Positions 2,275-58,359 of a stretch of DNA of 64,000 nucleotides are shown piece after piece. Source of the stretch: Mesostigma viride (Eukaryota > Streptophyta > Mesostigmatophyceae > Mesostigmatales > Mesostigmataceae); the NCBI GenBank assembly GCA_009746045.1, contig RPFO01000406.1, positions 2,948,872 to 3,012,871 on the forward strand, written 5' to 3'. The notes beneath the pieces are model-generated. The model saw nothing but the letters and a program-made list of their open reading frames with translations. It had not been told where the DNA came from and made no database searches. How positions within the stretch are numbered: position 1 is the first letter of the stretch; each line of letters begins with the position of its first letter. The position numbers were made by a program, and so were the translations under genes.

Positions 2275-2439
2275 TGATGCGAAATAGTTCAGGATAAAAT
2301 TTGTCAGAATTTCACTGGCGATACGAACGTAACGAAATTTCCAAGTATCCGACGCCGAAATATCATTGTTGTATCGAATGGTATGCTGAAATTCATTGTG
2401 GTCAAGTCCGAGCTGATAAATTTGTCAGAAATTTCATTT

Positions 2440-21804: not shown

Positions 21805-21865
21805 GTAAGAAGGAGGGTGTTGGTGGGGGCAATAGGTGTGTGTCGTGTCAGTGCTTGTGATGCAT

Positions 21866-22004
21866 GGCAGCCTCTTCCCCCCCACATGCATGCATGGCCA
21901 CCACACCCATGCACACCCATGCATACCAGGCGCCCCCTTTACCCACGCACGCATGGCAGCCACCCTCATCTACATGTACATGCATGGCAGCTTTCCCCCA
22001 CACG
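21866..22004. repeat. CATGCATGGCAGCC minisatellite in RepHel intron 3
   Basis: A short run of the same motif family as the 1.3 kb arrays in the macrorepeats (CATGCATGG, CACGCACGCATGGCAGCC). It starts about 60 bp after the splice donor at 21805. It links the intron to the upstream tandem array. Confidence 0.8.
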
Positions 22005-24367: not shown

Positions 24368-24984
24368 AGTTGTGAGGGTAAGAATGCCACGAATTCCGCC
24401 ATGGTTCTTGCAGGAAGTTGCCTTTATTAACAATCAGGAAACACAGACGTAAGTCACGTCACTTCCAAGACTGCACGCAGCACAGACGACAGGGTCGCAG
24501 TGCCAAGAGAACGTGCACGCAAGAACTAGCGTCCCGGTGTGACCAAGTCACTCATATAGCTTACTAGGGACGCGTCCAAGTATTCAGCTGCACTGTCACA
24601 GCTGAACTGTCAATCAATTGATTACACAGACTCTGGCACGCCTTTGGCGCGCAGATCTATCAATTGTCCATACGGCTAGTCCTGTGGACCTATCCGTACA
24701 CTAGTCAGCATCAATTGTCTCATAGGTCCTGGCGCGCTACAGTGCGCCTACCTATCAATTGACCATCAAGTCCTGTACAAGTCCTGTCAACGTCCTGCGG
24801 ACTATCAAAGTGACACTTGTACATCCTGTGTCCGTACGCGCCCACAGTGGCGCGCCGGGTACTGTCGGCACAGCCTAGGAAACGTCATAACTTTTACGTT
24901 CCTTAACCAAATGAGGCGTTCAAGGTGCCGTTGGAAAGAGCGTAACAATCTCTATCCATCTAACGTAAATCCTTTACGTTAACT
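24368..24984 (-). repeat. 3' LTR of the Copia element
   Basis: 617 bp; plus-strand reading starts AGTTGTGAGGG and ends TTTACGTTAACT. The termini AGTT..AACT are inverted but are not the canonical TG..CA. It is the 3' LTR because the element is on the minus strand and a polypurine tract abuts it. Confidence 0.92.
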
Positions 24985-25004
24985 CCAATCCCTTCTTTTC
25001 TTTA
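24985..25004 (-). other. Polypurine tract of the Copia element
   Basis: On the minus strand the bases directly before the 3' LTR read AAAGAAAAGAAGGGA, then TTGG. This is the expected plus-strand priming site and it confirms the element's polarity. Confidence 0.7.
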
Positions 25005-25933
25005 GGGGTCACATCCCCTGCCAGGGACCCTTGAAGTAGCTTGAAATGTCCTTCACTCCAGCTTGAAGCTTGAACAGATGTCTTTAATGGCCAATGCCAT
25101 TCCCCCAGCCCTTTCTTTTAAGGAACTGGAAAAGAAACAGATCTGCCACAGGGAAAACCATTTCATGAGAAATGGAGAAAACCTATGGAAGTGGCATTAC
25201 AGAGTACCACCAGATATTAGAAGCACACAAAATTAAATACATACAGGTTAATTCTATGAGGTCTTCTCCAGGAATTAATCCCATCACCTCGGTAGAGCCT
25301 CCAGTACAATGACCTTCTGGCGGTGAGTTACATTAATCCCAGATACTAATCCCATAAAACCCAGTACATATTCAATATAAGTACAATAAATCCATGACAA
25401 TTAAAATACCACTTGACAAAGTAAGGCGTATTACAATAGTTTGCCTGTCATTCTCTCAACAGGGGTCTATTGGCGCCCGTCTTACGGCGCCCGTCTACTT
25501 GCCAGATGGTAAACTGCCACAGCAAACAAATGACAAAATGAAACACATAGGCAACAATTAAATCCTGCCCTGGGGAACTAGGGAAGTCTGAACAGGCAAA
25601 CACCTGAACAGGCCAGCTTGTAGAAACATAATACCAGGGAATCGAACCCCGCCCTATAAACCCCAGAATAAAGGTTCCCAGACCATTGTGAGAAGTATGT
25701 ACAAATATACATTTCTTTTAAAATAGAATACATGGTCTGTAATGGACCTGTCAACCTTGTGTAGTCAACAGCATGAACCCCAGCCAAAACCTGGCTGTAT
25801 CCTGATTAAAATCAGAGTGAGTGTACCATGGTCCATGAGCCTTAGTACAGACTAAAATACAGGTATTATGCCAGTCACAATGCTGACACTACCACACAAT
25901 CTGCTCTCCAATGCCCTATAACCATGCACCAGC
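25005..25933 (-). other. Copia 3' untranslated stretch
   Basis: About 930 bp between the pol stop codon and the polypurine tract. The longest frame is about 69 codons and is unrecognised. This is rather long for the 3' end of a Copia element, but no feature could be identified in it. Confidence 0.5.
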
Positions 25934-28900
25934 TTAGACAGCTTGCTGAGATGGGTCCATCAGAGACTGAAGAACCTTGTATTGCACTGCTGCCTTCTGC
26001 ACTAGCTTGGTCAAAGCATCAGCAGGATTGTCAACCCCAGGGATATGCTCAATATTGGCCAAGGAGGACAACTCCTTAAGAAGGAGATAATCCAAGTCCC
26101 TACTTCTGGCCATCTGCCTGTGCACAAACTGCACCATCCCCATGGAGTCTGTTTTTAGAAGAGTGGTAACCTGAAGTGGCCAAGGAGTGTTAGAAGTCAT
26201 CTGATGAAGCAACTCCTTCAGATAAAGGCTTGTGTGAATGCCTTCACAAATAGCCCTGCATTCTGCCACATCACTGCTGACAGCCACCCGTTTGTGCAGG
26301 CGACTAAACCAGCTCACCAAACTCCCCAGGCCTTCCTGTCTGAGCACAAAGAGCCCTGCAGCCCTGCCCCTGACCTTGGAGACCTGCCTGCTGTCCATTG
26401 AGCTATCCACATACAGCTCCATGCAAATGGGTTGTGATAAATCCACTGCAGACAACAGAATGCCAGATGAAGCCCTGACCTGATCAGCCACCTTGGCAGA
26501 CCCTAGCTCCACCAGCATGTCATCAGGCAACCTGGCTATGACCATAAGGTCTGGCCTGGAAATGCCTGCCACCCAAGCAACCATGCCCCTCACCATGGGA
26601 CACAGTGCCTGTGTGATGGTTGGAGGAAGCTTGCTAATGAGGGTCTCTTGATAGTCATTGCCCCCCACCAGCAGCATACGCCACTCCCCTCCCTTCTTCA
26701 CCAGTGTGGCCTCCATGCCCACAAACAGCAGAGGCTCATTCTCCACCTGCCATTGCTCCCTACCCAGAGGAAACTTGGACTTAATGATGGAGATCAGCTC
26801 CTTAAGCCACGACGTGGGAGCTATCAGATGTAGGTCATCCCCGTGCAGCGAAGCATACACTGGCAGGCCTTCCCATTGCCCCAGAAACAGACAGGGGTCT
26901 ACAGGAGAGACCTTCAAGTTGCAATGCTCCTTCAGGAAACGGTTGAGAGTCTCCCTCCAGATTATTGGACTTGACCTCAGGCCCTCCAGGCCCTTGAGGA
27001 TTTTAAGGAACTCCGTGTGGATGTCCCTTTTCCATACAGCAGGCACCCTAACATAGAAAGGCGTCTTGCCCTCCCACTTTTCCTGTGCCACATCTGCATC
27101 ACCCTCCAGAAATGCCCTCTTGAAGTCTATCACCACTGAGCCATAGTCCAAGCCCTTGTTGAGAAGGCCTAGAAAGACACACAGCAGCAGCCTCCAAGTA
27201 TCATGCAGCATGCCAGGGGTATACAACTCCTCAGCAGTGCACTCACCAGTACCCTTGAACTCATTCAGCACTGGCCTGACATGTGGTACCTTGACCCCGT
27301 CCACCTCCTTCATCTTGATGACAAACTTGAGCTTGAGTAGACGTCGTGCAGGAGGCAGGTCATTGACAGGTTCCACGCATTTCTTGGAGATCCAGTCCTC
27401 CCCAGATTTAATCAGACCCAGTGTGACCTGGGGACACATAATGGGAGAGGACATGAGCTTCACCAGGCCTTGGTAGTTGATAGGGCTGTGTCCAGCAAGT
27501 GAGTGAGGACCAATGCCCAAACTGCTTGGATGACTAGCAGCTGGCAGTATGAGGTCATCAACCAAGGGCTCCTGCCCCTGGCACACTTGCACACGCTTAA
27601 CCGTCCTGGTTACTGCACGTGATAGGTGAGTGGTCCTGAAATTAATCAGTGGGACCTGACCAGCCCCTTCCTTAGTCAGGAGAGAGGACGTGATCACTAC
27701 CCCATCCTGGCATAGGAAATTCTGCCCCAGAAGAGCAGGTCCTTGATAGCCCTCCAAGACACAAAAAGCAGTGTCCTGTCCAAGGATAGGAATGAATACC
27801 TCACCCAGTACCTTCACGTGTACCCCGCCACTGAAGTCAGACACAAACTGATAGCTGGGTTCAGACATGCTGTACCCTGCTGCAGCCCTGGTCCCAATAA
27901 TGGAGACCTGAGAATTAGTGTCTACCTCTAAGGCAGTGTCCAGCCCCAGATTGCCATGCCACCTGAGCTTGGCTACCTTGGGCTGCTTCTTGGCCCTTTG
28001 TAGAGCCCCAATCAATCCAGCCAAACTTGTCCCCCTGGGCTTGGTTAGTGCCTTGGGCTTGACAGTTGACTCCCCAGCTGTTGACCTTGCAGCCTGTTCA
28101 ACAAGTACCTCTGCAACCTGGCCAGGGCTGACAGATTCCCCTGCAACAGATGTGGTCGTTGCGTCAGTGATGTCACCTGGGACCTGAAAATCCTGCAGAT
28201 CCTGTGAGCCTTGTGCCTGACTGCCCTCATTCATCAGGTTAGGCTTGACATATGACCAACTCAGCCGGTGTACATGCTTTGGTTCGTCCTCCATGCTGAC
28301 CAAGCATGCGTGGCTAGCTTCATCAACCTGGGTAACCACCCCAGGACTCCAGCTACCACGTTTGCCATAAAGGCTAGGTTCCTTCCAAGCTAGGACCTTC
28401 TGACCCACTTGTGGCTCCAGCATCTTCCAACCCCGGTCCTTCTCCCTCAGCTTGGCAAAGGTGACATGTGCAGCATGTTTCCAGCCCTCCAGCACATGTG
28501 GTGGGCACAGGCCATGATATAGACCCATTGGGCTGACAGCAACTCCATCATAGTAGAAGTTAACCCTGCTGTTCAGCTGCTGCTCCACGTTCCTCAGCCA
28601 TGCACTCCTGACAAGTGCAGGTGCAGACAAGGGTACCCAGTCTTCAGAGATGATCAATTTCTTGACCTCCTGGATTGCCCTCTCGATAGCACCCTGCTGC
28701 CCATGAGCCTCCCTAGGTGTAACCAGCAACTCAGGAAGGGTAGGATCACCCTTGAGATGCTGAAACTGCATGTCCACCTGGATCCTTGTGGTAGGAAACT
28801 TGGCTCTTACATTCTGCAGGGCAGCCAGCAAGTACCTGTTCTTCATAGAAGGTAAATGCTCCAGCACCTTGTATTTCGTGTACCTGTCCACGCACACCAA

Positions 28901-29560
28901 CAGTTGCATGCCCCTGATGTGTTGGATATCACACTGCAGATCACCAATGCTCTGAGGTAGAGCTTTGGCATGTGATTTCCTGGGCTTGTTGGAGGACAAC
29001 TGGCACTTACACCGTGAGGCAGCTTGCTGACACGCCTTAAGAAGGGGTGCCCTGCCCATACGGAAGGCAAAGTTGTTTGACAGAGAAGTGGCATGCCCAA
29101 ACATGTTGTGGATTCGGGCACCCAACTCCTGGTACACAGAGGAAGCAGTCCCTGGCACAGTCAGGACTGTGCTGTCAGGTTGTCCAGCATCACCATGCTG
29201 ACTTCCATCCTGTTCTGACTCAGAGCCTGAGTCACCCTGCTCATGCCCAACACCTGGACCGCCAGCAGGGACCACATGCATACCACCAGAGGCCTTCACA
29301 CCCCTCTGTGGTTGTACATTGGTTTCTCTCAAAATGAGAGGTCCACCCTCGTGCCCAGCACGAGGATGCATAGGGTCAGACATACTTACAGCTGCATCAG
29401 CTGTCAAGGACGTCTTCATAGGAACCTGTACCTCTCCAGGTGACCTGGGGCCACACTGAACCTGGAGATCACCCTCTTGTTGCCCAGATATAAAATCTGC
29501 ATTGGAGCACCTGGCCTCCCCCTTGGGTGAATTAAGGTGTGTAGGGGTTGCCTCAGACAG
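25934..29560 (-). CDS. pol: Copia Pol: integrase, protease-like, reverse transcriptase, RNase H
   Basis: Open from the codon after the Gag UGA (29560) to 25934; the first ATG is at 29419 (1,161 residues from there). Residues counted from that Met: zinc-binding H104/H109 with C130/C137; integrase catalytic candidates D164, D216 and E246; an aspartic-protease-like segment with VDTNS at 499-503 and LLGQNFL at 563-569; RT with VIDFKRAFLEGD (D765) and HGDD at 859-862 in place of the usual YVDD; RNase H with YVDSS (D1005), AE (E1053), KTDS (D1091) and ADALTK. In known Copia elements the protease precedes the integrase; here it follows. The protease has DTN where DTG or DSG is usual. The frame is intact, so the element may be active. 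Confidence 0.9.
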   Translation of the reverse strand: MSEATPTHLNSPKGEARCSNADFISGQQEGDLQVQCGPRSPGEVQVPMKTSLTADAAVSMSDPMHPRAGHEGGPLILRETNVQPQRGVKASGGMHVVPAGGPGVGHEQGDSGSESEQDGSQHGDAGQPDSTVLTVPGTASSVYQELGARIHNMFGHATSLSNNFAFRMGRAPLLKACQQAASRCKCQLSSNKPRKSHAKALPQSIGDLQCDIQHIRGMQLLVCVDRYTKYKVLEHLPSMKNRYLLAALQNVRAKFPTTRIQVDMQFQHLKGDPTLPELLVTPREAHGQQGAIERAIQEVKKLIISEDWVPLSAPALVRSAWLRNVEQQLNSRVNFYYDGVAVSPMGLYHGLCPPHVLEGWKHAAHVTFAKLREKDRGWKMLEPQVGQKVLAWKEPSLYGKRGSWSPGVVTQVDEASHACLVSMEDEPKHVHRLSWSYVKPNLMNEGSQAQGSQDLQDFQVPGDITDATTTSVAGESVSPGQVAEVLVEQAARSTAGESTVKPKALTKPRGTSLAGLIGALQRAKKQPKVAKLRWHGNLGLDTALEVDTNSQVSIIGTRAAAGYSMSEPSYQFVSDFSGGVHVKVLGEVFIPILGQDTAFCVLEGYQGPALLGQNFLCQDGVVITSSLLTKEGAGQVPLINFRTTHLSRAVTRTVKRVQVCQGQEPLVDDLILPAASHPSSLGIGPHSLAGHSPINYQGLVKLMSSPIMCPQVTLGLIKSGEDWISKKCVEPVNDLPPARRLLKLKFVIKMKEVDGVKVPHVRPVLNEFKGTGECTAEELYTPGMLHDTWRLLLCVFLGLLNKGLDYGSVVIDFKRAFLEGDADVAQEKWEGKTPFYVRVPAVWKRDIHTEFLKILKGLEGLRSSPIIWRETLNRFLKEHCNLKVSPVDPCLFLGQWEGLPVYASLHGDDLHLIAPTSWLKELISIIKSKFPLGREQWQVENEPLLFVGMEATLVKKGGEWRMLLVGGNDYQETLISKLPPTITQALCPMVRGMVAWVAGISRPDLMVIARLPDDMLVELGSAKVADQVRASSGILLSAVDLSQPICMELYVDSSMDSRQVSKVRGRAAGLFVLRQEGLGSLVSWFSRLHKRVAVSSDVAECRAICEGIHTSLYLKELLHQMTSNTPWPLQVTTLLKTDSMGMVQFVHRQMARSRDLDYLLLKELSSLANIEHIPGVDNPADALTKLVQKAAVQYKVLQSLMDPSQQAV

Positions 29561-30675
29561 TCACTGCTCCTTGTTGTCTTCTTGCTGACTGCCCTTTGAA
29601 GGCTGGCCTGCCTGGGACTTGTTGTTGTTCTTCTTGTTGTTGTTGTTATTCTTGTTGCTGCCCTGGCCCTGGGACTTCTTGAAGCTGGGACACTCCTTCT
29701 TGATGTGCCCCCACCCCTTGCACAGGTAGCATTGTATCTTGGACTTGCCCTGGCCACTGCCCCCATTGTCAGACGCGTTGCCCTGCTTGGGCTGACCACC
29801 CACCCGCCTGAACACCGACTTGGAGTGTGACCTCCTGTCAGAATCAGGTGAATGATCTCCCTTGCGCTTGTGATGGTTGCCCCTACGCCCTCCTTGGCTT
29901 CGGTCAGCCTCAGACGTCTTGGAGCCACCCTGGGTACGCCCGCCTGCCTGGGTAGCCTTCACTGCTGGCACTCCACCCTCAAACAGCTCCTCTGCCTCGA
30001 GTGCTTGTTTGATGATGACCTTGTAGGCCTTCAGGGTAGAGTGTGGGGCACACATGACTTTTAAGGAGCCACGTGTCGCCTTATCCAGCCCAGAAACCTT
30101 GAGCCAGTTGGTTAGGGCTATGTTATCAGCGACATTAAAGCCGTGAGCCCTGCCCTCCTCAACCATCTTACAATAGTTGAGAAAGTTCTGGATCAGGTCC
30201 CCCTTGACCTCCCACCCTTGGTATTTGTCCTGCCAATGGATCCCCACTTCTTCCTCTGATCCTCCAGCAGCTCCTTCAGCTCAGCCACGTACAGTGCCCA
30301 GGCCTTATTGGCCTTTTTGCACTCCCTGGTTAGGTCCTTAATCTGGTCAGTACACTTGCCAAAAGTGCTACTGCCTATCCAGATTTGATAGTAATTTGTA
30401 CCACCGTACAAGCTAGGGAACCCTTCCAATCCCTCCACAAACTCTTCAGCCTGCTTAGGCTTGGAGTCTGAGGTTACAGGCTGCAACTGATTGACAATTA
30501 AAAGACCCTGTGTGGTAAGATCAAAGCCATGAATAGCTTGTGCATTATTATTATTGTGAGGAAGGTTGGTAATCTCTCCGGTAAGCCCCACGTCATCTAC
30601 GTGAGCGGTTCCACTACCAGCACCCCCATTATTATTCCCACTGGCTGGACCCTTGCTACGGCGTCCCTCAGCCAT
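29561..30675 (-). CDS. gag: Copia Gag with zinc knuckle, split by a -1 frame change, ending at a leaky-type UGA
   Basis: Starts at ATG 30675 (MAEGRRSKG) and reads to a stop at 30193. The second frame, open from about 30247 to 29561, continues the Gag-like protein and is reached by a -1 shift in the overlap 30193-30247. The second part carries the CCHC zinc knuckle CYLCKGWGHIKKEC, which binds RNA, followed by an Asn/Lys-rich tail. It ends at CAG-TGA-CTG (TGA at 29563-29561) and Pol continues in the same frame. Because the two LTRs are nearly identical, the frame change may be real recoding, a recent mutation or an assembly error. Confidence 0.75.
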
Positions 30676-30845
30676 CCTGCACTACCAGCTATTCAAAGAA
30701 CACCTTAACGAAGCAGCAGAAAATATGTACAAAATTTTTGTGTCGCCTCTGCCGCCTGCGCCGGTGTCGCTGCCGCCCCCGCGAATTGCCGCCGAAATTC
30801 GACAAAAAAAATGTCGACAAGTACTGCAGAAGAAAATTAGGCCGA

Positions 30846-31556
30846 CTAGTAGTCAAGGCCCCTGAAGTCGCAGTACGTGTATACGAACTCACGATCCTCC
30901 ATATCCAGCTCCGGACCTGCACCGGTATGAATTAAAACCGGCGTGCTCCCCGCCGCGTAAGTTGCGACGCGCCGACGCGCGACGAGGCGCAGAGGATGTG
31001 TAAAGATCGTCAATAATTCCCACCCCGCGGGAATCCACTCTCGCACAGAGGCGAGAAATGCCACCAGGTTAATTAAAACCTGGCGCTCGCGACTGCGTAC
31101 GCCGCGAGTGAGCAGCGATAACAGCGCGAGATCCTGAAACAAATTTGTCGACACCGCCGGCGCGCCCCCCGTGCGTAGCGATGCCCAGTTTTGCAGGTTT
31201 CTCTGGTAACCGGTGAGTGAAGAGAGGACGTTGTCCAACTCCTCAATGGCAGTCGTGACTTCGGTCACCGACCGCAAACCTCCCCGCACCTGGACCGTAA
31301 ATGTCGATAAAATGTTTCGAATCTGGTCCAACAGGTTGCGGATTGCCGGCACCAGTGCTGGCAAATCGGGGTCCTCGGGGTTATCCCCGAGCAATGCGTG
31401 AGCTGCACGCTGCTGACGATGAAGCTCGTCGAGCGAAACTGTAACTTCGTCGAGCAATTGTTGCCACGACGGCACAGTTGGTCTTGACGAAGAACCAGCC
31501 GGCGGAGCGGCTATTTCCTCATCGTCCGGAATCCGAAATTCTTCCGAATTTGGCAT
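30846..31556 (-). CDS. ORF1 of the Copia element, unknown function
   Basis: First frame inside the 5' LTR, with ATG at 31556 (MPNSEEFRIPDDEE), about 236 residues. The N-terminus is acidic and proline-rich. The middle is predicted helical and rich in Leu, Glu and Arg, with no zinc finger or catalytic motif. I do not recognise a family. It is separated from the gag start by about 170 bp. It occupies the place where Copia elements normally begin Gag, so it may be a divergent extra structural protein or a captured gene. Confidence 0.55.
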   Translation of the reverse strand: MPNSEEFRIPDDEEIAAPPAGSSSRPTVPSWQQLLDEVTVSLDELHRQQRAAHALLGDNPEDPDLPALVPAIRNLLDQIRNILSTFTVQVRGGLRSVTEVTTAIEELDNVLSSLTGYQRNLQNWASLRTGGAPAVSTNLFQDLALLSLLTRGVRSRERQVLINLVAFLASVREWIPAGWELLTIFTHPLRLVARRRVATYAAGSTPVLIHTGAGPELDMEDREFVYTYCDFRGLDY

Positions 31557-31580
31557 CTTTTTGACAGAGCGTGTAATACG

Positions 31581-32198
31581 AGTTGTGAGGGTAAGAATGC
31601 CACGAATTCCGCCATGGTTCTTGCAGGAAGTTGCCTTTATTAACAATCAGGAAACACAGACGTAAGTCACGTCACTTCCAAGACTGCACGCAGCACAGAC
31701 GACAGGGTCGCAGTGCCAAGAGAACGTGCACGCAAGAACTAGCGTCCCGGTGTGACCAAGTCACTCATATAGCTTACTAGGGACGCGTCCAAGTATTCAG
31801 CTGCACTGTCACAGCTGAACTGTCAATCAATTGATTACACAGACTCTGGCACGCCTTTGGCGCGCAGATCTATCAATTGTCCATACGGCTAGTCCTGTGG
31901 ACCTATCCGTACACTAGTCAGCATCAATTGTCTCATAGGTCCTGGCGCGCTACAGTGCGCCTACCTATCAATTGACCATCAAGTCCTGTACAAGTCCTGT
32001 CAACGTCCTGCGGACTATCAAAAGTGACACTTGTACATCCTGTGTCCGTACGCGCCCACAGTGGCGCGCCGGGTACTGTCGGCACAGCCTAGGAAACGTC
32101 ATAACTTTTACGTTCCTTAACCAAATGAGGCGTTCAAGGTGCCGTTGGAAAGAGCGTAACAATCTCTATCCATCTAACGTAAATCCTTTACGTTAACT
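31581..32198 (-). repeat. 5' LTR of the Copia element
   Basis: 618 bp, matching the other LTR except for one extra A (ATCAAAAGTG versus ATCAAAGTG). Just inside it, on the element strand, the sequence CGTATTACACGCTC takes the primer-binding-site position. It does not begin with the TGG expected for the 3' end of a tRNA, so priming may use an internal tRNA segment or another primer. Confidence 0.92.
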
Positions 32199-33258
32199 GA
32201 AGCTATGCTGAATTTTCTTCACCACCCTTGCGGTGCGGGAGCTATGCTGAATTTTTTTCACCACTCTTGCGGTGCGGAAGCTATGCTGAATTTTTTTCAC
32301 CACCCTTGGGGTGCGGAAGCTATGCTGAATTTTTTTCACCACCCTTGCGGTGCGGGAGCTATGCTGAATTTTTTTCACCACCCTTGCGGTGCCGAAGCTA
32401 TGCTGAAATTTTCTTCACCACCCTTGGGGTGCGGAAGCTATGCTGAATTTTTTTCACCACCCTTGGGGTGCGGAAGCTATGCTGAATTTTTTTAACCACC
32501 CTTGCGGTGCGGAAGCTATGCTGAATTTTTTTCACCACCCTTGCGGTGCGGAAGCTATGCTGAAATTTTCTTCACCACCCTTGGGGTGCGGAAGCTATGC
32601 TGAATTTTTTTCACCACCCTTGGGGTGCGGAAGCTATGCTGAATTTTTTTCACCACCCTTGCGGTGCGGAAGCTATGCTGAATTTTTTTCACCACCCTTG
32701 CGGTGCGGAAGCTATGCTGAAATTTTCTTCACCACCCTTGGGGTGCGGAAGCTATGCTGAATTTTTTTCACCACCCTTGGGGTGCGGAAGCTATGCTGAA
32801 TTTTTTTAACCACCCTTGGGGTGCGGAAGCTATGCTGAATTTTTTTCACCACCCTTGCGATGCGGAAGCTATGCTGAAATTTTCTTCACCACCCTTGGGG
32901 TGCGGAAGCTATGCTGAATTTTTTTCACCACCCTTGCGGTGCGGGAGCTATGCTGAATTTTTTTCACCACCATTGGGGCGGGAAGCTATGCTGAATTTTT
33001 TTCACCACCCTTGCGGTGCGGAAGCTATGCTGAATTTTTTTCACCACGCTTGGGGTTCGCGAGCTATGCTGAATTTTGTTCACCACCCTTGGGGTGCGGA
33101 AGCTATGCTGAAATTTTCTTAACCACCCTTGGGGTGCGAAAGCTATGGTGAAATTTTCTTAACCACCCTTGGGGTGCGGAAGCTATGCTGAATTTTTGTT
33201 AACCACCCTTCCAGTGCGGAAGCTATGCTGAAATTTTCTTCACCACCCTTGCGGAAGC
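32199..33258. repeat. ~39-bp satellite, right arm, inside RepHel intron 3
   Basis: About 27 units of the same satellite as 22005-24367, resuming exactly after the Copia target duplication. It ends about 85 bp before the next RepHel exon at 33344. Confidence 0.95.
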
Positions 33259-33343: not shown

Positions 33344-36096
33344 GATGCGAGGAGAAAGGGCAAGGAGATCAAAGTGCCAAAGGACGCGCTAAGGAATGCT
33401 AATGGCGAGGTACGAATTTGTTTAGGGTGTTGTATTGCGAGCAACGACTTTGTTTATGCTTGATTGGATAGGTTGTTATTTGTGCGCATGTGTGAACCGC
33501 GGGGGTCGGCTAACGGTGTGCTAACAATTGTGCGAACGATGACTGCACTGCAGGTCATCTTCTGCGTCGTGGACACCCAGCGTGCCGACACGGAGAGCGA
33601 GTCAGGAGACCCGTCGCCCCCGCCACGCTACTACTTGAAGCTGCGCAAGAAGCGGCATTACGCGCGCATCTACATCGCGGACCTGAGGAAGCCGCAGTTA
33701 TTTTTTCTGCGCACGTTGTTGTTGAAGCGCGCGGGCCGGTCGTGGCAGGACTTGTGCACGGTGGATGGCGAGGTGCTGACGTATGAGGAGGCATGCCAGC
33801 GGTTACATTTGCTGGAGGATGATAACGAGGCGGTGGAGGCCATGCGCCAAGCGGTGGAAAGGAAGAGCGCGCCACCTTCGTTGCGACGATTGTTTTGCGT
33901 GCTGCTTCTGCAAAACATGGCGACACCCGAACAGCTTTGGAAGTTCCGCGACGACATGTGCGTTGATTACGTCGATAACGAGTACGCCAAGCGTTGCGGG
34001 GATGCGGCGCGGCCGGAAGGAATCACATTTGCGGACCGACAGCGGGCACTGGCGCGCTTGATGGATTATTTGGACAAGCGGTTGTGCGATCGGGGCGTGG
34101 ACGTGTGGGCGCTGGACCCGCAGCTCAAGGCGCGGCGTGACGCGGGGGAGGACGTGTTCGCGTTCGAGCAGCCACGACCGCACCGCGGGCCGCGGGCGTT
34201 TGTGGGCGACTTTTCCATGGAACAAACCCTCTCGTTTCAGACCATCATGCATGCTGTAAGAGGGGAGATCTCGCACCGGCGTTTTTTTGTGGACGGTCCA
34301 GCGGGTACAGGGAAGACGCGCGTGCTGAACGCGGTTGTGCAGCAGTGCAATCACGAGGGGCGCAATGTGGTGGCGATGGCGTTCACGGGCGTGGCGGCGA
34401 CGCAGGTGCGGGGGGGTCGCACGTCGCACCACTTTGCAGGGTTTCCGCTGGAGCTGGACACGGAAGCCGGGTGCGGGGTGCGCTTCGGTTCCGCCAAAGC
34501 AAAAGTGCTGATTGATGCGGACGTCATCATCTACGATGAGATCAGCATGGTCCACAAGGTGCACTTGCAGTTGTTGGACGCGCTGTTGCGGGACCTGTTA
34601 GGCTCCAAGGATGAGCCCTTTGGTGGGAAGGTGATGGTGTTTGCTGGGGACTTCCGCCAAGTGGCTCCGCCTGTGGGGGACAGCACTCGGGCGTGCGCGG
34701 CGAGCGTGGTGCGTTCGGACCTGTGGGTGGGCGTCAGGAAGCTCGCCTTGACTCGCAACTTTCGTTGCAATGAGGAGGTTTACAGTCAGATGTTGTTGGA
34801 CGTGGGCACGGATCGGATGCGGCGCATCAAGGTTGAGAACAAGAAGACGGGCCGGTTGGAGGCAATGGTGCCGTTGAAGATGGTCGAGAAGGTGGCGGAC
34901 GTGGATGAGCTCATCGAGTTCACGTTCCCGGACGTCAACGATACTGGTGCGTGCATGCGCTCATCAATCGTGACGGGCACGAATGCCGCGCGGCACGCCA
35001 TCAACGCAGCGGTATTGGCAAGGCTGCCTGGGGAGACGCACACCGCGAGAAGCCACGACTCCACCAATGATCCCCACAACAAGGCGCGCATCCCGCAAGA
35101 GTTCCTGAACGACGCGTGGGAGAGCGGCGTGCCCCAGCATGAGCTCAAGTGGAAGAAGAACGCCATCGCCATTATTACACGGAATTTGTCGCACAAGGAT
35201 GGCCTCTTGAACGGCACGCGGGTCGTGATCAAAGGGGCGACGGACAAGTTTATGGTCGTGCATACCTTGGATGAGAAGGAGCACCTCATCCCACGCATCA
35301 ACTTCTTCATGAAGGGCTACCCGGTGCGACGGAGGATGTTCCCACTAGAGGTACGTGCAAGCTAAGTATTTTGTTTGCTTTGCCACTGCGTTTTTAATTT
35401 TTTGTGCCCAAAATCTGTTTTTAACTAAAATCATGCGTGTGCTCGTGTGATTCGTGTCTGTGGATCGTTGTGCAGCTCGCATACGGTGTTACCGTGCACA
35501 AGTGCCAGGGGCAGACTCTACAACGTGTTGGGTTGGACTTGCGCACGGACATGTTTAGCCACGGCATGTTGTACACGGCGCTGAGCCGCGTCGGTGGCAA
35601 GGATTTGATTCGCGGGTTGTTCGCGCACGAGTTGGATGGGGTTGGCTGTAGCCCGAACGTTGTGCACCGCACCATCTTGGAAGGGGCAAAGCTGTTCAAA
35701 CAAGGTGACATGCCGGACCCGTTGTTTGCAGAGTTGCAGGAGCTGTACGCCCAGAGGGAGGTGGATGCTGTGGTGGAGGGCGAGGAGGGTTACGGTGACG
35801 TGGTTGACGACTACAAGACGTATGGGGAAGACGGTGATGACGATGGAGTCTTGCCGCCGCAGGGCGGCTTGGCCACTGATCACTGTCACGATGGGTTGGA
35901 CGAGGCGGTGCGTGAAAGGGAGTGGTTCATGGACTACGAGGAACCGATGTGGGGAAGGTTCATGAGGGATAAATATCCAGAGGACTTTGTGAATGACGAC
36001 GACTTTGGGAATACGTGCAGCGGGTCTGACGAGGAGCTCGGGTCTGAGCCTGAGTGGCCATCGGGATCCGACGTGAGCGTGGCGGATGACGACGAG
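33344..36096 (+). CDS. Helitron RepHel, PIF1-like helicase exons
   Basis: Exons 4-6: 33344-33409 (22 codons), 33554-35350 and 35476-36096, with GT-AG introns all in phase 0. This is a superfamily 1 helicase of the PIF1 type, which unwinds the displaced strand during rolling-circle transposition. Seen: the FFLRTLLL..DLCTVDGE linker typical of Helitrons; Walker A GPAGTGKT at 34295-34318; Walker B region VIIYDEISMV at about 34524; GDFRQVAPPVGD at about 34650; and, after the intron, LAYGVTVHKCQGQTL with YTALSRV (about 35570). The join PLE-LAYGVTVHK restores motif V/VI continuity. The C-terminal ~120 residues are acidic and lead in phase 0 into the peptidase exons. Confidence 0.92.
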
Positions 36097-36220
36097 GTAC
36101 GATAGCAGCATTTGGATGTTGTTGCGTGCTGTGGTATTGTGTTTCAGATCTTGCATTATTGGGGCTCTAATTTTTGTCTTGCTGCGTGGTCGCGATTGCG
36201 TGGACATCACGGTGACGCAG

Positions 36221-38866
36221 GCATCTTCCGTGTGGGGCGGCGCATCGCCTGGTGGCAGCGAGGGCAATCGCGATTCCGTGGGTTCAAGCGTTTGGGACAA
36301 CCTTGACCTTGGGAGCGATAGGATGGTACGTGTCGAGTCTTGCGTGCGGTTGCGTGTTTCCTTCATGCTTTATGAACCTGATATTGCATGCATATCAGAC
36401 AACTTAGCCATCTCGCCGATGTGCCATTTTTGCGTGTCGCCCTCACATGGCTTTCCGCAGGTCGACGCGCGCAGCGATGTCGCGTCGTCTCAGGTCAGCT
36501 GGGGGTCGCAATTATCGATCGGCGCGCCGGTGCTCGACATGTCTCACCTAGTCGAGTTAAAGAAGAACCTACGCGATCTGGACGCGGAAATGCGGGCGAG
36601 AGGCCTGGCAGAGTCCGCGGCCAAAAGTGCGGCGGCAGCGGTTCCGGCGACACCGGTCGCCACGCAAGATGATTCGCGGACAAGGGGCGACCAACAAACG
36701 GCGACTGGCGCGCCACGGGACGTTGCAGCTGCATCGCGTCCGAACAGCTCGCGGCAAACAACCGGTGCACGGACCACGTCTGCCGCGCGGCCTGGCGATG
36801 ATGGCGCAGCGAGTTCGTGCGGGTGCAAGGACTGCGCCATTTTTGAGGACCTGGTGGGTGCGTGCGGCGATTTGCTGCTGCCTGTAGGCCGCCAAGTCAC
36901 GTTCACGTGGGCGCGCAATAGCTGCCACTACGACGCTGCCCTTGAGTTTTTGTACGTGCTATTGCTTGCAACGCAAACTGCCACGCGCTCCGGGCTGCGT
37001 TCTTTGCTGTCGCGTCCGGCGGGTGTTGCCCACGGTGCGGCATGCAAAATCGGGGTCGAGCTGTTCAACGCGATGGCCGCCGCCGCGCGCGAGGACGGCA
37101 TTGGGATGACGGCGGCGAGGGAGAAACTGCGCAAGCTCCTTGATCCAACGATGGCTCGTCAAGCGGGGTCCATGCAATGCGCCCTAGAGGACGTGGAGCA
37201 CATGATGGGGTACGTGTCTCGAGGCCATCCACGGCTTGGGGAGCGTTCGTGCCATGTCCCACCGTTCTTTGACTTTGGCGCCGTTACGCTGCCATTGATG
37301 CTTTATGACCGCGACGATCACACAACCTTGGCTGCGCATATGGCATCTGCGTACCAGGAGTTTAAGGTTGTAAGGTGCCCTGAGGTTGATTGCACTGCCA
37401 GGTCCAACTGCAAACAAAAGGTGTATCTTCCGGAAGTGCCCCCGTTCCTTGCATTCGGTGGCATTTGGCAGATGCATTTGGATCGGGGGCGCAACGCATC
37501 GCCAGGGTTGCCAGAATCTCTACAAATGGTCGTCTCGGTCGGCGACGCGCGTGAACAGGTTCGCGTGAATGCGTGGCTCAGCGGGGTGTTGCGTAGGTCC
37601 GGCGGGGCCCATTTTCAACTGCTACGTCGGGCCGGCGTGGATACCCCGTGGGCACTGGTGGACGGCAACAAGCGCAATGACTGCGTCTTGCCTTGTTCTG
37701 CAAAAGACATGCAGCACTTGGCGTGGGACACCATTGCGTGCTGTTACGTTGTATCCGCAGTTCCGAGGTCATCACATGACTCACGCCAGGCCGCGCAAGC
37801 GGTGGGTGACGACCACGTGCACGATACAGATGATTTTTGCGTTCCTAACCCACCCGCGTCATGGGTGTACACTCCAGCGCGGGCCGAGTCAACTCCAAGT
37901 ACGGCCCATTGCAACGACTTCTCAGGCTTAGTAGGACGCTTTCGCTCAGGGCCGTTGCCCATGCGACGTCTTCTCATGGCTGATTGGGTCGGAAATAGTT
38001 GCCATGTCGATGCCGCATGGCATCTTTTCTATGATAGCGTGGCCTTAACACTTCTAGTTGGCACGCTTGTGTTATTAGATGTACTGCAGTGCAATCGCCT
38101 GAATGACAGGCATAGAGCCTCGTGTGCCATCGGTGTGCGCATGGTTGAGTACATCCATGCGCATGCTTTTGGCAATGTTTCTGACATGAACGCTGCGAGG
38201 CGCCTCTTACGTACACCATTAGATGCCACGGCAGACCGCGCTAACCATGCGGTTGGAGACGCGCGCCATAACCTATACCATTTCATGCAGCGATTCAAGT
38301 ATGCGCGATTGCGCCAAGGCGATTTCATGTGCCGCCAACCTTTTGGTACTGACGGAGAATTAGTGCACCCAATATCCATAGCGTTGGAATTGGGTGAAAA
38401 CATAGATATCAAAGAACGCATGATCATAGCCTGTACACGCCGGCCCGACCACGCCCCTTGTCCATATAACTGTGGCTGCGTCGGTTGCACACCTTTGCGT
38501 TACTTTGATCACGTGCCCCGTGTGCTGGTGTTTGGGAATGTACATGGCAATACGGTCGCTTTGCCTGTTCGTAATTACGCCGGTGAAGGGCTACCGACCA
38601 CCTTCCGGATGTCCATCTGGGTGGGTCGCGCTTGCCGGCCGGTCGCAATCGTAGCACACTTGTACGGGGTTCTTGAGTATCGTCCCAACCACTTTGTGTA
38701 TCTCCGTAGGTTTAATGGTGATGATGATTGGGAGGAGGTTGACCCCTACAAGGCGCACGCCCACCCCAACCATCCCAAACAATATCCATATGGTGGGAGA
38801 ATGGACCTCGTGAGCTTGGCAAAGAGCACAGTGGCATGCTTGTACCGCGTGACCATTGATGAGTGA
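36221..38866 (+). CDS. Helitron RepHel C-terminal extension: two tandem USP-like cysteine peptidase modules
   Basis: Exons 7-8: 36221-36325 and 36461-38866. Both joins are phase 0, so they continue the helicase frame; stop at 38866. After an Ala/Thr-rich linker, module 1 has a Cys box NSCHYDAA (Cys codon 36923), a His box AHFQLLRR (His 37610) and Asp in LVDGN (37661). Module 2 has NSCHVDAA (Cys 38000), NHFVYLRR (His 38690) and Asp in EEVDP (38741). Cys-His spacing is 229 and 230 codons, and His-Asp is 17 codons in both. Cys-rich clusters before each His box (CPEVDC; CPYNCGCVGC) suggest zinc binding. The Cys/His/Asp order resembles C19 ubiquitin-specific proteases. A separate gene is possible, since the frame is also open through both short introns. 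Confidence 0.75.
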   Translation, partial: ASSVWGGASPGGSEGNRDSVGSSVWDNLDLGSDRMVRVESCVRLRVSFMLYEPDIACISDNLAISPMCHFCVSPSHGFPQVDARSDVASSQVSWGSQLSIGAPVLDMSHLVELKKNLRDLDAEMRARGLAESAAKSAAAAVPATPVATQDDSRTRGDQQTATGAPRDVAAASRPNSSRQTTGARTTSAARPGDDGAASSCGCKDCAIFEDLVGACGDLLLPVGRQVTFTWARNSCHYDAALEFLYVLLLATQTATRSGLRSLLSRPAGVAHGAACKIGVELFNAMAAAAREDGIGMTAAREKLRKLLDPTMARQAGSMQCALEDVEHMMGYVSRGHPRLGERSCHVPPFFDFGAVTLPLMLYDRDDHTTLAAHMASAYQEFKVVRCPEVDCTARSNCKQKVYLPEVPPFLAFGGIWQMHLDRGRNASPGLPESLQMVVSVGDAREQVRVNAWLSGVLRRSGGAHFQLLRRAGVDTPWALVDGNKRNDCVLPCSAKDMQHLAWDTIACCYVVSAVPRSSHDSRQAAQAVGDDHVHDTDDFCVPNPPASWVYTPARAESTPSTAHCNDFSGLVGRFRSGPLPMRRLLMADWVGNSCHVDAAWHLFYDSVALTLLVGTLVLLDVLQCNRLNDRHRASCAIGVRMVEYIHAHAFGNVSDMNAARRLLRTPLDATADRANHAVGDARHNLYHFMQRFKYARLRQGDFMCRQPFGTDGELVHPISIALELGENIDIKERMIIACTRRPDHAPCPYNCGCVGCTPLRYFDHVPRVLVFGNVHGNTVALPVRNYAGEGLPTTFRMSIWVGRACRPVAIVAHLYGVLEYRPNHFVYLRRFNGDDDWEEVDPYKAHAHPNHPKQYPYGGRMDLVSLAKSTVACLYRVTIDE

Positions 38867-39454: not shown

Positions 39455-40943
39455 TCAAACAGAGGACCAATCAAAATCATCCCACTTGATGTCCTGGGCC
39501 TGCTTGTCGAGATCAGGGAAGAAGTAGTCCTTCGCGACCAGGAGGTACTGGGGCCCTTCCTTGGACCCGGGGGCGGCGGACGCGAACTGCGCCGGGCGGA
39601 CACGCAGGTGGAGGTTCGTCCATCGGTTGGACGAAAAGAAGTTTTCCCACAGCTGGGCGCGCTCCTTCGGGTCCATGTCAAGCCACTCGGTTGGCGTGAC
39701 GGGCGGGTCGCGAAGCATGGACGACACTCCGTCCGTGAACAGGGACACCTTGATGAAGTGGTTGGGATCTCGAATGTAGCATCCCCCGTGGAAAAACGGG
39801 CTGCCCTTCTGGTGTACCCCGGGGTGGTCAGTGCACACCCCGTCGACGAGGGCCTTGCGACACGTGCGGTTTGACGACCGCGCCTTTTGCACACAGCCAT
39901 AGTAAATGCACCGCTTTGGGTCATTATAGTGCTCGGCGGGGGTGAGCTGAGCCTCGCACGTCGCAGAAAAGGAGCCCGCTTTGAGGTCGCTCCACGCCTT
40001 GGCGCTGATGTCCACCAACGACATGACCGGAGATTCGTCGACGATGGCGATTCCTTTGTACTTGTCATCTTTGAGGGCATCGGCCTTCAAAGTTGCTGCG
40101 TCGCCGCCCACCACGTCGCTGGTGGTGACGTAAGCGGTGTTTCCCGCAGCCAGGGTCACATTCCCCTGGTAATACCCGAGCTTGGCGCCTTTGATGGCGA
40201 TGACCAGCGTGGCGCCTGCGTGCGCGTTGTCGACCACCGCCTGTTGGGCGTCGTCGAACAGAATGACCGAAATGGTGGCGGCCGTCGCAGCCGTGGAAGA
40301 GTCCGCAAGGATGATGCGTGTCCGCGACGTCTTGGCCGATGCCTTCGGTCGGTAAATGGCGTTCACCAGACCAAAGACATCCACGGAGGCCTTAACGTGG
40401 CCATTGGCGACCGGGATCTTCTTTTCCAGCGCTTTGAACGGCGTGAAGTCGAACGGCATCGTGAAGTTGCCTCCATCGATGGGCGTGTCAACCAGACGCA
40501 TGTTGTTGCCATTCCGCAAGTGGAGTGTAAACCTGCGCCCAAGAACAACAATGCACACAATAACGAGAATAAGTTAGTCAAGAAGGCAAAGAAATAGATA
40601 TATGTTGGTCGTCTCCTTGAGATAGTGATGCACAAGCTGTATATGAAGAACAAGGAATGCGATTTGGGATTGCTACCTACCCAGAAGCACTCCAAGTACA
40701 TGGTGTCCGCGTGTTGGTCACAAACTGAGCATGCTGGCCCACGGGGAAGGTCTCCTTGCCAACGTCCAGCCCGTTCTGGCGACGAAAGTCATCCACGTTG
40801 GCAATGACGGTGTGGGCCTTCCCGTTTTTGTCCACAACGATGATGTGGTATGCGTGCAAGTTGCGGCCTGAGGGGGGAGTATACATGCCGACGTGCATGA
40901 TCTTGCCAGCGAGGCGGTAGATCTGCGATGCCGGTGTCGCCAT
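39455..40943 (-). CDS. Helitron-associated RPA70-like single-strand DNA-binding protein
   Basis: Two coding exons on the minus strand: 40943-40681 and 40532-39455. The GT-AG intron is in phase 2 on both sides, giving 446 residues. The N-terminal part (QIYRLAGKIMHVGMY..HIIVVDKNG) and the middle (TISVILFDDAQQAV..GAKLGYYQGN) look like OB folds of the large replication protein A subunit. The Cys cluster RCIYYGC..NRTC..GVC fits the DBD-C zinc site. RPA-like genes are known cargo of plant and algal Helitrons, where they are thought to protect single-stranded intermediates. The gene faces RepHel tail to tail, 588 bp away. A CACAG acceptor five bases before the ATG suggests a noncoding 5' exon. Confidence 0.8.
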
Positions 40944-41099
40944 GGGACCTGTGAAACAAGAATATTGATGCAACCAAAACAAACACAACAAAAGGCAAAC
41001 AAGTTAGTTAAGCACACATCAAAATGCAAAATGTAAAAGCGGATGATGTAGGAAATACACCTGTCCACCGGCCTACAAATGGAATATGAATAAGGCATG

Positions 41100-41220: not shown

Positions 41221-41608
41221 GTTGGGCTGCTTTTATAGTTTGTTGAAGAATCTAAGATTCGAGGGTCAGTTTCACACGCAAACACACGAGCTCCAAGTGG
41301 CAATCGCACACTTGTCCGTGTTTGGGAATGTAGACCCAAAATGTTTAGCAAGTGCCACTTGGCGAAGACAATCGAATATATATTAGCAACATTCATGGTT
41401 TGCCATCTGGCGCGCAGTCTGGGAAGATCCCTACAAATCATACGTCATGCTGAAGTTATTTCCCTGCACGTGGTTTATGGGCAGCCGCCACGTGCATTTC
41501 AGAGCACGGAATCTGTCAACAAACCGTCCGGCACAATGAATATGCATGGAATCGTGTCGTAATCACAGGCTGTGGCCGGCCGGACAGGTTCGGGTGAAGT
41601 TATTCCCC

Positions 41609-41682
41609 TGCACGTGGCGGCTGCCCATGGACCAACCTACGACGATCGTCGTAGGTTGGTATATGGGCAGCCGCCACGTGCA
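41609..41682. repeat. 74-bp near-perfect palindrome
   Basis: The core, 41631-41660, is a perfect 30-bp palindrome centred on ACGACGATCGTCGT. It is flanked by inverted arms TGCACGTGGCGGCTGCCCAT (from 41609) and their complement ending at 41682. It sits about 30 bp before the 737-bp tandem array. It could extrude as a cruciform or mark an excision or foldback scar. Confidence 0.9.
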
Positions 41683-41709
41683 TTTCAGTGCACGGAATCT
41701 GTCAACAAA

Positions 41710-44700
41710 CCGTCCGGCACCATGAGTTTGCATGGAATCGTGGCGTAATCCAGGGGATCACAGGCTGTGGCCGGCCGTACAGGTTCGGCTGTCTTGCTAG
41801 TGGGCGGGCTGTGTAAGCGGGAGTGTACGGCTGTGCTGGTACTCGCCGTTGAGGCACAAAAAGCCGTTGAGGCACAGAATCTGCCAAGTAGCGGGGGTTC
41901 GGGGGCGGAGCCCCCGATCTTGTTGCCCTTTATACTACGATTATGGTCCGCCAATTGTTCCGCAAACTCTTCCGGCAAACGTTGTCCGTACCCTAGTAGC
42001 GCAAAAATCCGAACGCACAATTTGTTTCCACAAAATCTTTCAGCAGATCGCGTCCGTAGGCTTTCTAGCGGCCTGTCACCGCGTAGCGTCCGGCACCCAA
42101 ACTCTTCTAAGACGGGAACTCAAACAAATACCCCGTGACGACAGTAGTAGTCAGTAAAACAGACTAAAACGGCCGTTACCTGCGCGTAACGGTCCAGAAC
42201 TCCGAGTTTCTAAGCTCCGTAGCTATCGACGACGATGCGTGCCAAGTTCAGCTTGAAATTGGCCTAGGCGTTTGGGCCGGACGAGGGAAATTGGCGAGGA
42301 AAACGGCGAGGAGAGGACCGATTCAAGTGGTATTTGGCGGTTGCTGGCAAAAAGTGAGGAATCTGACGGACGGACCTGACGTGCTGACATACCAGGTTTA
42401 GTTGCGGTTCGGTTCAGCCACCGGCTTCCCAAAATAGGCCAGCAACCCGTCCGGCACCATGAGTTTGCATGGAATCGTGGCGTAATCCATGGAATCACAG
42501 GCTGTGGCCGGCCGTACAGGTTCGGCTGTCTTGCTAGTGGGCGGGCTGTGTAAGCGGGAGTGTACGGCTGTGCTGGTACTCGCCGTTGAGGCACAAAAAG
42601 CCGTTGAGGCACAGAATCTGCCAAGTAGCGGGGGTTCGGGGGCGGAGCCCCCGATCTTGTTGCCCTTATATACTACTTTTAGGTCGGCCCAATTGTTCCG
42701 CAAACTCTTCCGGCAAACGTTGTCCGTACACGAGTAGCGCAAAAATCCGAACGCACAATTTGTTTCCACAAAATCTTTCAGCAGATCGCGTCCGTAGGCT
42801 TTCTAGCGGCCTGTCACCGCGTAGCGTCCGGCACCCAAACTCTTCTAAGACGGGAACTCAAACAAATACCCCGTGACGACAGTAGTAGTCAGTAAAACAG
42901 ACTAAAACGGCCGTTACCTGCGCGTAACGGTCCAGAACTCCGAGTTTCTAAGCTCCGTAGCTATCGACGACGATGCGTGCCAAGTTCAGCTTGAAATTGG
43001 CCTAGGCGTTTGGGCCGGACGAGGGAAATTGGCGAGGAAAACGGCGAGGAGAGGACCGATTCAAGTGGTATTTGGCGGTTGCTGGCAAAAAGTGAGGAAT
43101 CTGACGGACGGACCTGACGTGCTGACATACCAGGTTTAGTTGCGGTTCGGTTCAGCCACCGGCTTCCCAAAATAGGCCAGCAACCCGTCCGGCACCATGA
43201 GTTTGCATGGAATCGTGGCGTAATCCATGGAATCACAGGCTGTGGCCGGCCGTACAGGTTCGGCTGTCTTGCTAGTGGGCGGGCTGTGTAAGCGGGAGTG
43301 TACGGCTGTGCTGGTACTCGCCGTTGAGGCACAAAAAGCCGTTGAGGCACAGAATCTGCCAAGTAGCGGGGGTTCGGGGGCGGAGCCCCCGATCTTGTTG
43401 CCCTTATATACTACTTTTAGGTCGGCCAATTGTTCCGCAAACTCTTCCGGCAAACGTTGTCCGTACACGAGTAGCGCAAAAATCCGAACGCACAATTTGT
43501 TTCCACAAAATCTTTCAGCAGATCGCGTCCGTAGGCTTTCTAGCGGCCTGTCACCGCGTAGCGTCCGGCACCCAAACTCTTCTAAGACGGGAACTCAAAC
43601 AAATACCCCGTGACGACAGTAGTAGTCAGTAAAACAGACTAAAACGGCCGTTACCTGCGCGTAACGGTCCAGAACTCCGAGTTTCTAAGCTCCGTAGCTA
43701 TCGACGACGATGCGTGCCAAGTTCAGCTTGAAATTGGCCTAGGCGTTTGGGCCGGACGAGGGAAATTGGCGAGGAAAACGGCGAGGAGAGGACCGATTCA
43801 AGTGGTATTTGGCGGTTGCTGGCAAAAAGTGAGGAATCTGACGGACGGACCTGACGTGCTGACATACCAGGTTTAGTTGCGGTTCGGTTCAGCCACCGGC
43901 TTCCCAAAATAGGCCAGCAACCCGTCCGGCACCATGAGTTTGCATGGAATCGTGGCGTAATCCATGGAATCACAGGCTGTGGCCGGCCGTACAGGTTCGG
44001 CTGTCTTGCTAGTGGGCGGGCTGTGTAAGCGGGAGTGTACGGCTGTGCTGGTACTCGCCGTTGAGGCACAAAAAGCCGTTGAGGCACAGAATCTGCCAAG
44101 TAGCGGGGGTTCGGGGGCGGAGCCCCCGATCTTGTTGCCCTTTATACTACGATTATGGTCCGCCAATTGTTCCGCAAACTCTTCCGGCAAACGTTGTCCG
44201 TACCGAGTAGCGCAAAAATCCGAACGCACAATTTGTTTCCACAAAATCTTTCAGCAGATCGCGTCCGTAGGCTTTCTAGCGGCCTGTCACCGCGTAGCGT
44301 CCGGCACCCAAACTCTTCTAAGACGGGAACTCAAACAAATACCCCGTGACGACAGTAGTAGTCAGTAAAACAGACTAAAACGGCCGTTACCTGCGCGTAA
44401 CGGTCCAGAACTCCGAGTTTCTAAGCTCCGTAGCTATCGACGACGATGCGTGCCAAGTTCAGCTTGAAATTGGCCTAGGCGTTTGGGCCGGACGAGGGAA
44501 ATTGGCGAGGAAAACGGCGAGGAGAGGACCGATTCAAGTGGTATTTGGCGGTTGCTGGCAAAAAGTGAGGAATCTGACGGACGGACCTGACGTGCTGACA
44601 TACCAGGTTTAGTTGCGGTTCGGTTCAGCCACCGGCTTCCCAAAATAGGCCAGCAACCCGTCCGGCACCATGAGTTTGCATGGAATCGTGGCGTAATCCA

Positions 44701-47290: not shown

Positions 47291-47882
47291 TACACTAGCT
47301 CCGGGAGTGTCGCGGACAGCCAGCTACTATGCTGGAGTGACTTACGACGTGCGTTGCCAGGCCAGCTGGTCATATATTGCGGGAAGCCTATGACGGCTGC
47401 ACGCACCTTGCGTGTACAATTGTAGGTGTGAGGAAGACGCCGGGGTTTTACTTACAGCCCGCGTGGAGTCTTGGCGCAGGGGCTGCAGGCCGCAAACGCG
47501 CCACAGCTGCAACGTCTAGCCAGTAGCGCATTGCCGGGCCGGCGAGGCGCCGGCTACTTGGTTTCTTGAGGGGCCCTCTTCTATCAAGTTCCTTTAACTC
47601 GCGGGATTTGCTGCCTATAAGCTAAATTGCTGCTCTAGATAGCAGTAGTCACAAGCAGTAAGTAGTCACTATTACTAGTAGCTCCAAGGCAGCCATACGC
47701 AATATAGGTAATGGGTTCATGCTCCCCGTAGTGCTGCAACTAAGGGGCTTACTGTCTCTTGTGCGCTTGATCTGACATCACTGCTGTTGGATCTTGAAAG
47801 ACGTTGCCAACAGCATCATAAGTAGCCAGTGCACAACGGTGCAGACTTCCCAGCGCCAGCACACCGCACTCCAGCGTGCACT
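47291..47882. other. Upstream region of the secreted-protein gene
   Basis: About 590 bp between the G/C tract and the chosen ATG. No coding frame, TATA box or repeat could be supported. It must hold the promoter and 5' leader if the model for the downstream gene is right. Confidence 0.4.
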
Positions 47883-57955: not shown

Positions 57956-58359
57956 CACGTGTCTGCACGCGAGACTTGTTCAGCGGGTTATATACATACG
58001 ACTGGCTATAGATATTGTTTCCGCATTCCCCGCCTCCCCCGCTTGTGGGGTACGTGTAAGGCTGGACCATCTACGCTGCTCCTCACAGGTCTTTGGCACC
58101 ATTGCGTGATAAGCTGGAGTTCCTCAAGCAACACAAGCGGCTTGGTGCAGGGACCTCCTACACGCTGGACGACGACTTGACCATGGCGCAGCGACGGGAG
58201 CTCTGGCCGACGTACCTACCTCCAGCTCCGGCAAGCAGCAGGGAAGAAGCCGGTTTACTGGAGGGGGCGGGCTGCCATCTACGTCGACCACAAGCCATGG
58301 CAGCTAGGTGCAACAATGTACCCCAGCAACCCGCCAAGGGGAAACATATAAGTGTAGCA

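Follow-up and report, generated by a model that had tools for sequence, protein, structure and literature searches.

A Mesostigma viride Helitron with two predicted USP-fold cysteine peptidase modules apparently joined to its Rep-helicase

Helitrons that carry deubiquitinase-type domains are already known: sections of PMC9741609 describe VTD domains in Helitrons, as a pair in one case, and Helitrons with OTU domains. Here we report on a Helitron in a 64,000-nucleotide stretch of Mesostigma viride DNA (assembly GCA_009746045.1, contig RPFO01000406.1, positions 2,948,872 to 3,012,871 of the forward strand; the whole stretch is called the window). Two tandem modules, predicted to have the fold of the catalytic domains of ubiquitin-specific proteases (USPs), apparently form the C-terminal part of its Rep-helicase (RepHel). 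We estimate a probability of roughly 0.6 for our overall reading, a Helitron whose Rep-helicase is extended C-terminally by USP-fold cysteine peptidase modules that most likely act in cis. The Helitron architecture together with the USP fold of the modules is very probable.

The window element shares with the Helentron-type VTD Helitrons an open reading frame in which RepHel is combined with one or two deubiquitinase domains, and in both the catalytic residues are kept, with inactive VTD relatives occurring in insects (sections of PMC9741609). It differs from the VTD Helitrons in its USP-like predicted fold with a zinc-ribbon pattern, in that no AP endonuclease domain was found among the frames run against Pfam, and in the alternation of inactive and active modules within one frame in its relatives. 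OTU-carrying Helitrons, as cited in part of PMC9741609, likewise combine RepHel with a cysteine peptidase domain, whereas the window modules have no OTU match and the fold matches listed for module 2 are of USP, PLpro or Pan2 type. Plant Helitrons combine RepHel with an RPA-like single-strand-binding gene, and the relevant portion of PMC4683698 mentions no deubiquitinase in them; the window element has a candidate for such a gene, with a match below the curated cut-off. Searches of openly licensed papers listed no Helitron with a USP-class domain. An earlier note on this DNA had called the architecture possibly undescribed, which stands for a USP-class Helitron within the openly licensed papers and does not stand for deubiquitinase pairs in Helitrons, which have been published. 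The window element would work by analogy with the VTD and OTU Helitrons, and what appears to be new is the other fold, a tandem pair that far predates the split of the families and the inactive partners in the frame of the relatives.

The element has an HUH-type Rep domain and, downstream of it on the same strand, a PIF1-type helicase, which is followed by the modules:

19898..21397, plus strand: Rep (HUH) frame, Pfam PF14214 Helitron_like_N at residues 94-295 (expectation value, E, 1.7e-31)
21517..21804, plus strand: next Rep exon, within frame 21478-22047; ends and splice sites judged by eye
33464..35350, plus strand: PIF1 helicase exon (PF05970, E 1.2e-45); donor at 35351, with 33464 being the start of the frame only
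35476..36096, plus strand: helicase C-terminal exon and acidic linker, placed by junction sites; UvrD_C_2 E 0.0017, below the cut-off
36221..36325, plus strand: linker exon, placed by junction sites, phase 0
36461..38866, plus strand: exon carrying modules 1 and 2 together with the stop codon, placed by open frame and acceptor
36824..37771, plus strand: module 1, Cys codon at 36923, His at 37610, Asp at 37661
37907..38863, plus strand: module 2, Cys codon at 38000, His at 38690, Asp at 38741; USP-fold model

A single open frame (36077-38866) contains both modules with their NSCH boxes, His boxes and Asp residues, in line with the one frame stated in the earlier note. The Cys-His spacing is 229 codons in module 1 and 230 in module 2 and the His-Asp spacing is 17 in each, which had been claimed to go beyond chance; this is confirmed, as the modules are homologous and align over about 320 residues with 29% identity (E 3e-21). 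Because of this alignment, the equal spacings reflect one duplication and not two independent hits. The introns at 35351-35475, 36097-36220 (124 nt) and 36326-36460 (135 nt) are all GT-AG introns in phase 0, and the latter two start with GTACG and end with GCAG. Intron 36326-36460 is open in frame and its length is a multiple of three, so 36221-38866 could be one exon. Hence the two short introns proposed between helicase and modules are upheld in their splice sites and phase, while the second may be exonic. Judged from these signals, the array is apparently part of the Rep-helicase polypeptide. The Helitron context is confirmed by the Helitron_like_N and PIF1 domains, and the order of helicase and then modules recurs in the genome. 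The proposed fusion of RepHel to the modules is supported at the level of sequence; in the window copy itself RepHel is incomplete.

We searched the 440-Mb source genome (G000), in which the window lies on contig 1435, with the module frame as query and obtained at least 64 matches in at least 36 clusters (same contig and strand, within 12 kb). With 56 of the 412 candidates scored, the number of module places is a lower bound. In 17 of the 36 clusters a same-strand Helitron_like_N match lies upstream within 25 kb, at distances of 6.8-15.7 kb, compared to about 0.06 clusters expected by our own arithmetic under random placement. These 17 clusters pair with 17 of the 55 Rep matches. By eye, a same-strand Rep follows cluster C481 at less than 25 kb, and C1106 has one on the opposite strand. 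Of 20 stretches fetched around matches, 16 have the helicase C-terminal exon ahead of the modules and on their strand, and in 15 the main helicase exon lies there as well; the four stretches without a preceding helicase are L026, L027, L033 and L035.

Some of the relatives have four modules. L021 has one 1709-aa frame with modules at residues 124-422, 583-882, 971-1268 and 1399-1705, L022 has the same four modules spread over two frames, and in L023 and L030 three modules are complete and the first is partial. The four-module order (A, B, C, D) is inactive, active, inactive, active; the window element has two active modules only. No module relatives were found in scans of viral contigs or of prokaryote genome contigs, and the viral contigs, scanned with the helicase too, gave no relatives either. 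Broken module copies are also present as inverted pairs, plus then minus, on contig C335 of G000 (3283964-3285262 and 3313204-3315889).

The 67 full-length modules from overlapping loci represent 36 distinct sequences, 24 of which have the Cys. All 24 also have the His and the Asp, with Cys-His spacings of 222-230 and His-Asp spacings of 17-18, and a Phe or Tyr follows the catalytic His in 22 of them. The remaining 12 modules are Cys-less, ten by a gap at the Cys box and two with Gly, and Arg replaces the His in ten of these 12; the frameshifted inactive module L038:1747 is counted among them and was excluded from the tree described below. Zinc-type Cys residues are found at alignment columns 152, 202, 207 and 213 in 24/24 active modules, and in the inactive ones at columns 149 and 152 (12/12) and 202 and 207 (11/12). 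The active modules therefore carry a four-Cys zinc-ribbon pattern, with zinc binding being predicted. Loss of catalysis with the zinc site kept suggests a retained fold with a non-catalytic task.

In a fold search the model of module 2 matched USP catalytic domains. The absence of a papain-like or USP fold had been named beforehand as a ground for giving up the idea, and the predicted structure came out on the side of a USP fold. The modules resemble USPs (C19), CYLD and USPL1 (C98) in predicted fold, in the order and spacing of Cys, His and Asp, in the His-aromatic motif and in the zinc Cys residues; the His-Asp spacing in USPs is about 17 and many USPs carry a four-Cys zinc ribbon. They differ from USP/C19 in that their sequences lie beneath Pfam UCH detection and in having an N-S-C-x-x-D box, not the classical one, which we take to resemble the CYLD/USPL1 box. 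In a profile search of the PDB the three top rows were designed helical proteins and USPL1 came fourth with two colinear sub-threshold matches, in the zinc region and in the His/Asp box (E 1.1). Of two phmmer searches against the PDB, one gave no match and the other only a DARPin (E 0.67). The modules are predicted to be of USP fold and outside the Pfam UCH family, whose profile they fail.

OTU and C48, which the earlier note had named as families to compare, were not borne out. The Pfam OTU profile has no match in the modules at E up to 10, and no VTD or OTU chains are among the fold matches listed for module 2, by which a VTD or OTU fold is not excluded. In CE-clan peptidases (C48/Ulp1) the His precedes the Cys in the chain (section of PMC7391069); Cys before His in 24/24 Cys-bearing modules speaks against a C48/Ulp1 identity. 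The commonest Pfam match, the herpes helicase-primase profile (3 of 17 modules, best 0.0099), was judged to reflect composition. An AlphaFold model of module 1 from two rows was set aside with a predicted local distance difference test score (pLDDT) of 36.5.

In a tree of 35 modules, module 2 and the last modules (D) of the four-module families are on one side of a branch (96/96), and the inactive modules A and C are on one side of another (100/99). Sisterhood of modules 1 and 2 was rejected in the approximately unbiased test (p-AU 0.0001), and a grouping of B with module 1 was neither recovered nor rejected (p-AU 0.31), module 1 having a long branch and an unsure placement. As the tree groups module 2 with D and rejects the sisterhood, the pair predates the divergence of these Helitron families; their helicases share 46-49% identity with the window helicase. 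We calculated the ratio of nonsynonymous to synonymous substitution rates (dN/dS) by NG86 for 14 pairs; no ratio was obtained for two of them, and saturation (dS 1.5 and 3.9) affected two more. In the ten pairs with dS below 1 the ratios were 0.43, 0.78, 0.38, 0.40, 0.80, 0.16, 0.49, 0.59, 0.27 and 0.24, and thus below 1 in all ten, weakly so in two.

A hallmark of deubiquitinases and other Gly-Gly proteases is an aromatic residue after the catalytic His (section of PMC7391069), so that ubiquitin or a relative of it is a likely substrate, and we infer binding and cleavage of ubiquitin, or of another modifier ending in Gly-Gly, by the modules. Because the array is seemingly part of the Rep-helicase polypeptide, action in cis would be most likely; cis protection of the transposition protein, taken as a claim of its own, is tentative, at a little below even odds. 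In such a mechanism the array would travel with the Rep-helicase as its C-terminal part and would strip ubiquitin from this protein, or from proteins of the host where transposition takes place, whereby the proteasome would fail to clear the transposition complex. The Cys-less modules of the four-module families may be non-catalytic ubiquitin-binding or scaffolding partners. Erven et al. propose an equivalent cis role for Helitron VTDs (section of PMC9741609). Among the functions suggested in the earlier note, ubiquitin-directed action appears to be the better reading, and cutting of the polyprotein has no positive evidence.

USP-fold modules would let the Helitron interfere with the ubiquitin-tagging control of the cell. 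The host mRNA-decay protein Pan2, a structural match of module 2, is a pseudo-ubiquitin-hydrolase with a USP-type fold and no catalysis; it would be a parallel for the Cys-less modules, and the alternating inactive modules would recall how host complexes such as Pan2 employ pseudo-hydrolases. The chances are balanced that Helitrons recruited at least three deubiquitinase classes (OTU, VTD and USP-like) and that the C-terminal array of alternating catalytic and dead modules is a multivalent ubiquitin-handling device in a transposition protein. If so, ubiquitin removal would be a recurring need of rolling-circle transposons that has been met repeatedly by different folds, and with the array it would be simple to ask by experiment if and how the Rep-helicase is marked for destruction in cells.

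Several points weigh against the overall reading of a Rep-helicase extended by USP-fold modules that act in cis. Splicing to the helicase is predicted from sequence alone and unproven, and the Rep of the window copy is truncated. Foldseek gave TM-scores of 0.38-0.49 and root-mean-square deviations of 8-16 Å for the model of module 2, PLpro is among the fold matches listed, and the model covers a single module type and was built from 17 aligned rows; deubiquitinating activity is itself a prediction. Pfam UCH is unmatched in 17/17 modules, the 32 matches of a genome-wide UCH profile search do not overlap any module, and the classical USP Cys-box and His-box signatures match 0 of the 36 distinct modules. 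Furthermore, the aromatic residue is replaced by Cys or Leu in 2 of the 24 Cys-bearing modules. There is no Rep match within 25 kb upstream of 19 of the 36 clusters and no module cluster behind 38 of the 55 Rep matches, some of which form a group whose frames measure about 1,600-1,800 aa. Two pairs have a dN/dS near 0.8.

A peptidase fold within a long polypeptide could also belong to self-processing proteases that cut the Rep-helicase polyprotein: coronavirus PLpro proteins process polyproteins, and the USP-like coronavirus PLpro is among the fold matches listed. However, USP-type enzymes recognise folded ubiquitin, no ubiquitin-like domain was noticed in the linkers (no dedicated search was made), and the families retain two active modules behind long variable linkers, which leaves self-processing very improbable. 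Counter-defence in trans, in which the modules, attached or released, deubiquitinate host silencing or repair factors and not the Rep-helicase, would suit the aromatic motif and the predicted USP fold, which fit a general deubiquitinase, and host targets are hit by the herpesviral relatives of Helitron VTDs (section of PMC9741609). Nothing in the data indicates a host target, however, and the apparent helicase fusion favours action at the transposition complex; we regard this explanation as unlikely.

The modules could furthermore be a separate gene between the helicase and the RPA-like gene, unfused to RepHel, as there are in-frame ATG codons before module 1 in the module exon and, in the L030 type, an ATG directly behind the acceptor. 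This ATG is GCG in L023 and L024, although the CGCAG acceptor ahead of the module frame is kept between families (L023, L024, L025, L030 and others; both aligned by eye). An acceptor that is kept where the ATG is not fits an internal exon better than a separate start, and phase 0 is held at 3/3 window junctions, so a separate gene is rather improbable. Helitrons are known gene capturers, and the two close pairs with a dN/dS near 0.8 would be compatible with a captured host gene fragment that is useless to the element. None of the genome UCH matches lies at the modules, so no close host source is seen, and the grouping of module 2 with the last modules of families with diverged helicases (46-49% identity), as well as the catalytic residues retained in every Cys-bearing module, make a captured fragment scarcely credible.

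The window copy is damaged at Rep and its modules stay open. In comparison to the C180 copy, homology begins at 19752, inside a Rep N-terminal exon, with Rep truncated at its N-terminal part, and the Cys-rich knuckle exon of C180 has no counterpart in the window. The C180 copy is broken too, with helicase and module 2 interrupted. Identity of the window modules to those of the C1468 copy is 100% (module 1) and 99.4% (module 2). About 9 to 11 kb past the modules, the C1468 contig has a stretch unmatched in the window; this speaks against C1468 being the other allele, though it is a single stretch. The region between Rep and helicase holds a 39-bp tandem array, which in the window is interrupted by a Copia-like element, whose limits were set from the array ends:

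22011..24367, plus strand: left half of the 39-bp tandem array, on the Rep side
24368..32198, minus strand: Copia-like long terminal repeat retrotransposon, pol frame 25937-29560; RVT_2 E 4.2e-6, below the curated cut-off
32199..33254, plus strand: right half of the 39-bp tandem array, on the helicase side

The array is also found in the C180 copy and, without the Copia-like element, in the C1468 copy, and could belong to an intron of unusual length. A zinc-knuckle gag frame (29564-30280) belongs to the minus-strand Copia-like element inside the array.

Two further features lie behind the modules:

about 39458..40945, minus strand: RPA-like single-strand-binding gene, REPA_OB_2 E 9.3e-4, 19.5 bits against a cut-off of 27
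41441..41719, no strand assigned: two copies of a 63-74-bp core, also present in L047 and L007

The RPA-like gene is convergent with the peptidase frame and has a homologue behind the C1724 copy, where the surrounding DNA has diverged. The 63-74-bp core bears a hairpin, is common to the region behind three copies and is possibly the end region of the element.

Elsewhere in the window, positions 1-15371 hold four units of nearly identical sequence (about 96-97%), inside which lie 30-bp tandem arrays rich in CCCACGCACGCATGCCAGCC. An 897-aa frame at 47826-50516 has four similar Cys-rich segments split by Pro-rich stretches and resembles a pherophorin-type extracellular protein, with no solid match in Pfam. 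A chromodomain integrase frame (Integrase_H2C2, rve, Chromo) of a Ty3-like retrotransposon is located at 62500-63999 on the minus strand, and 58359-58758 is an (ATTAA)n array of about 80 copies that is 98% uniform.
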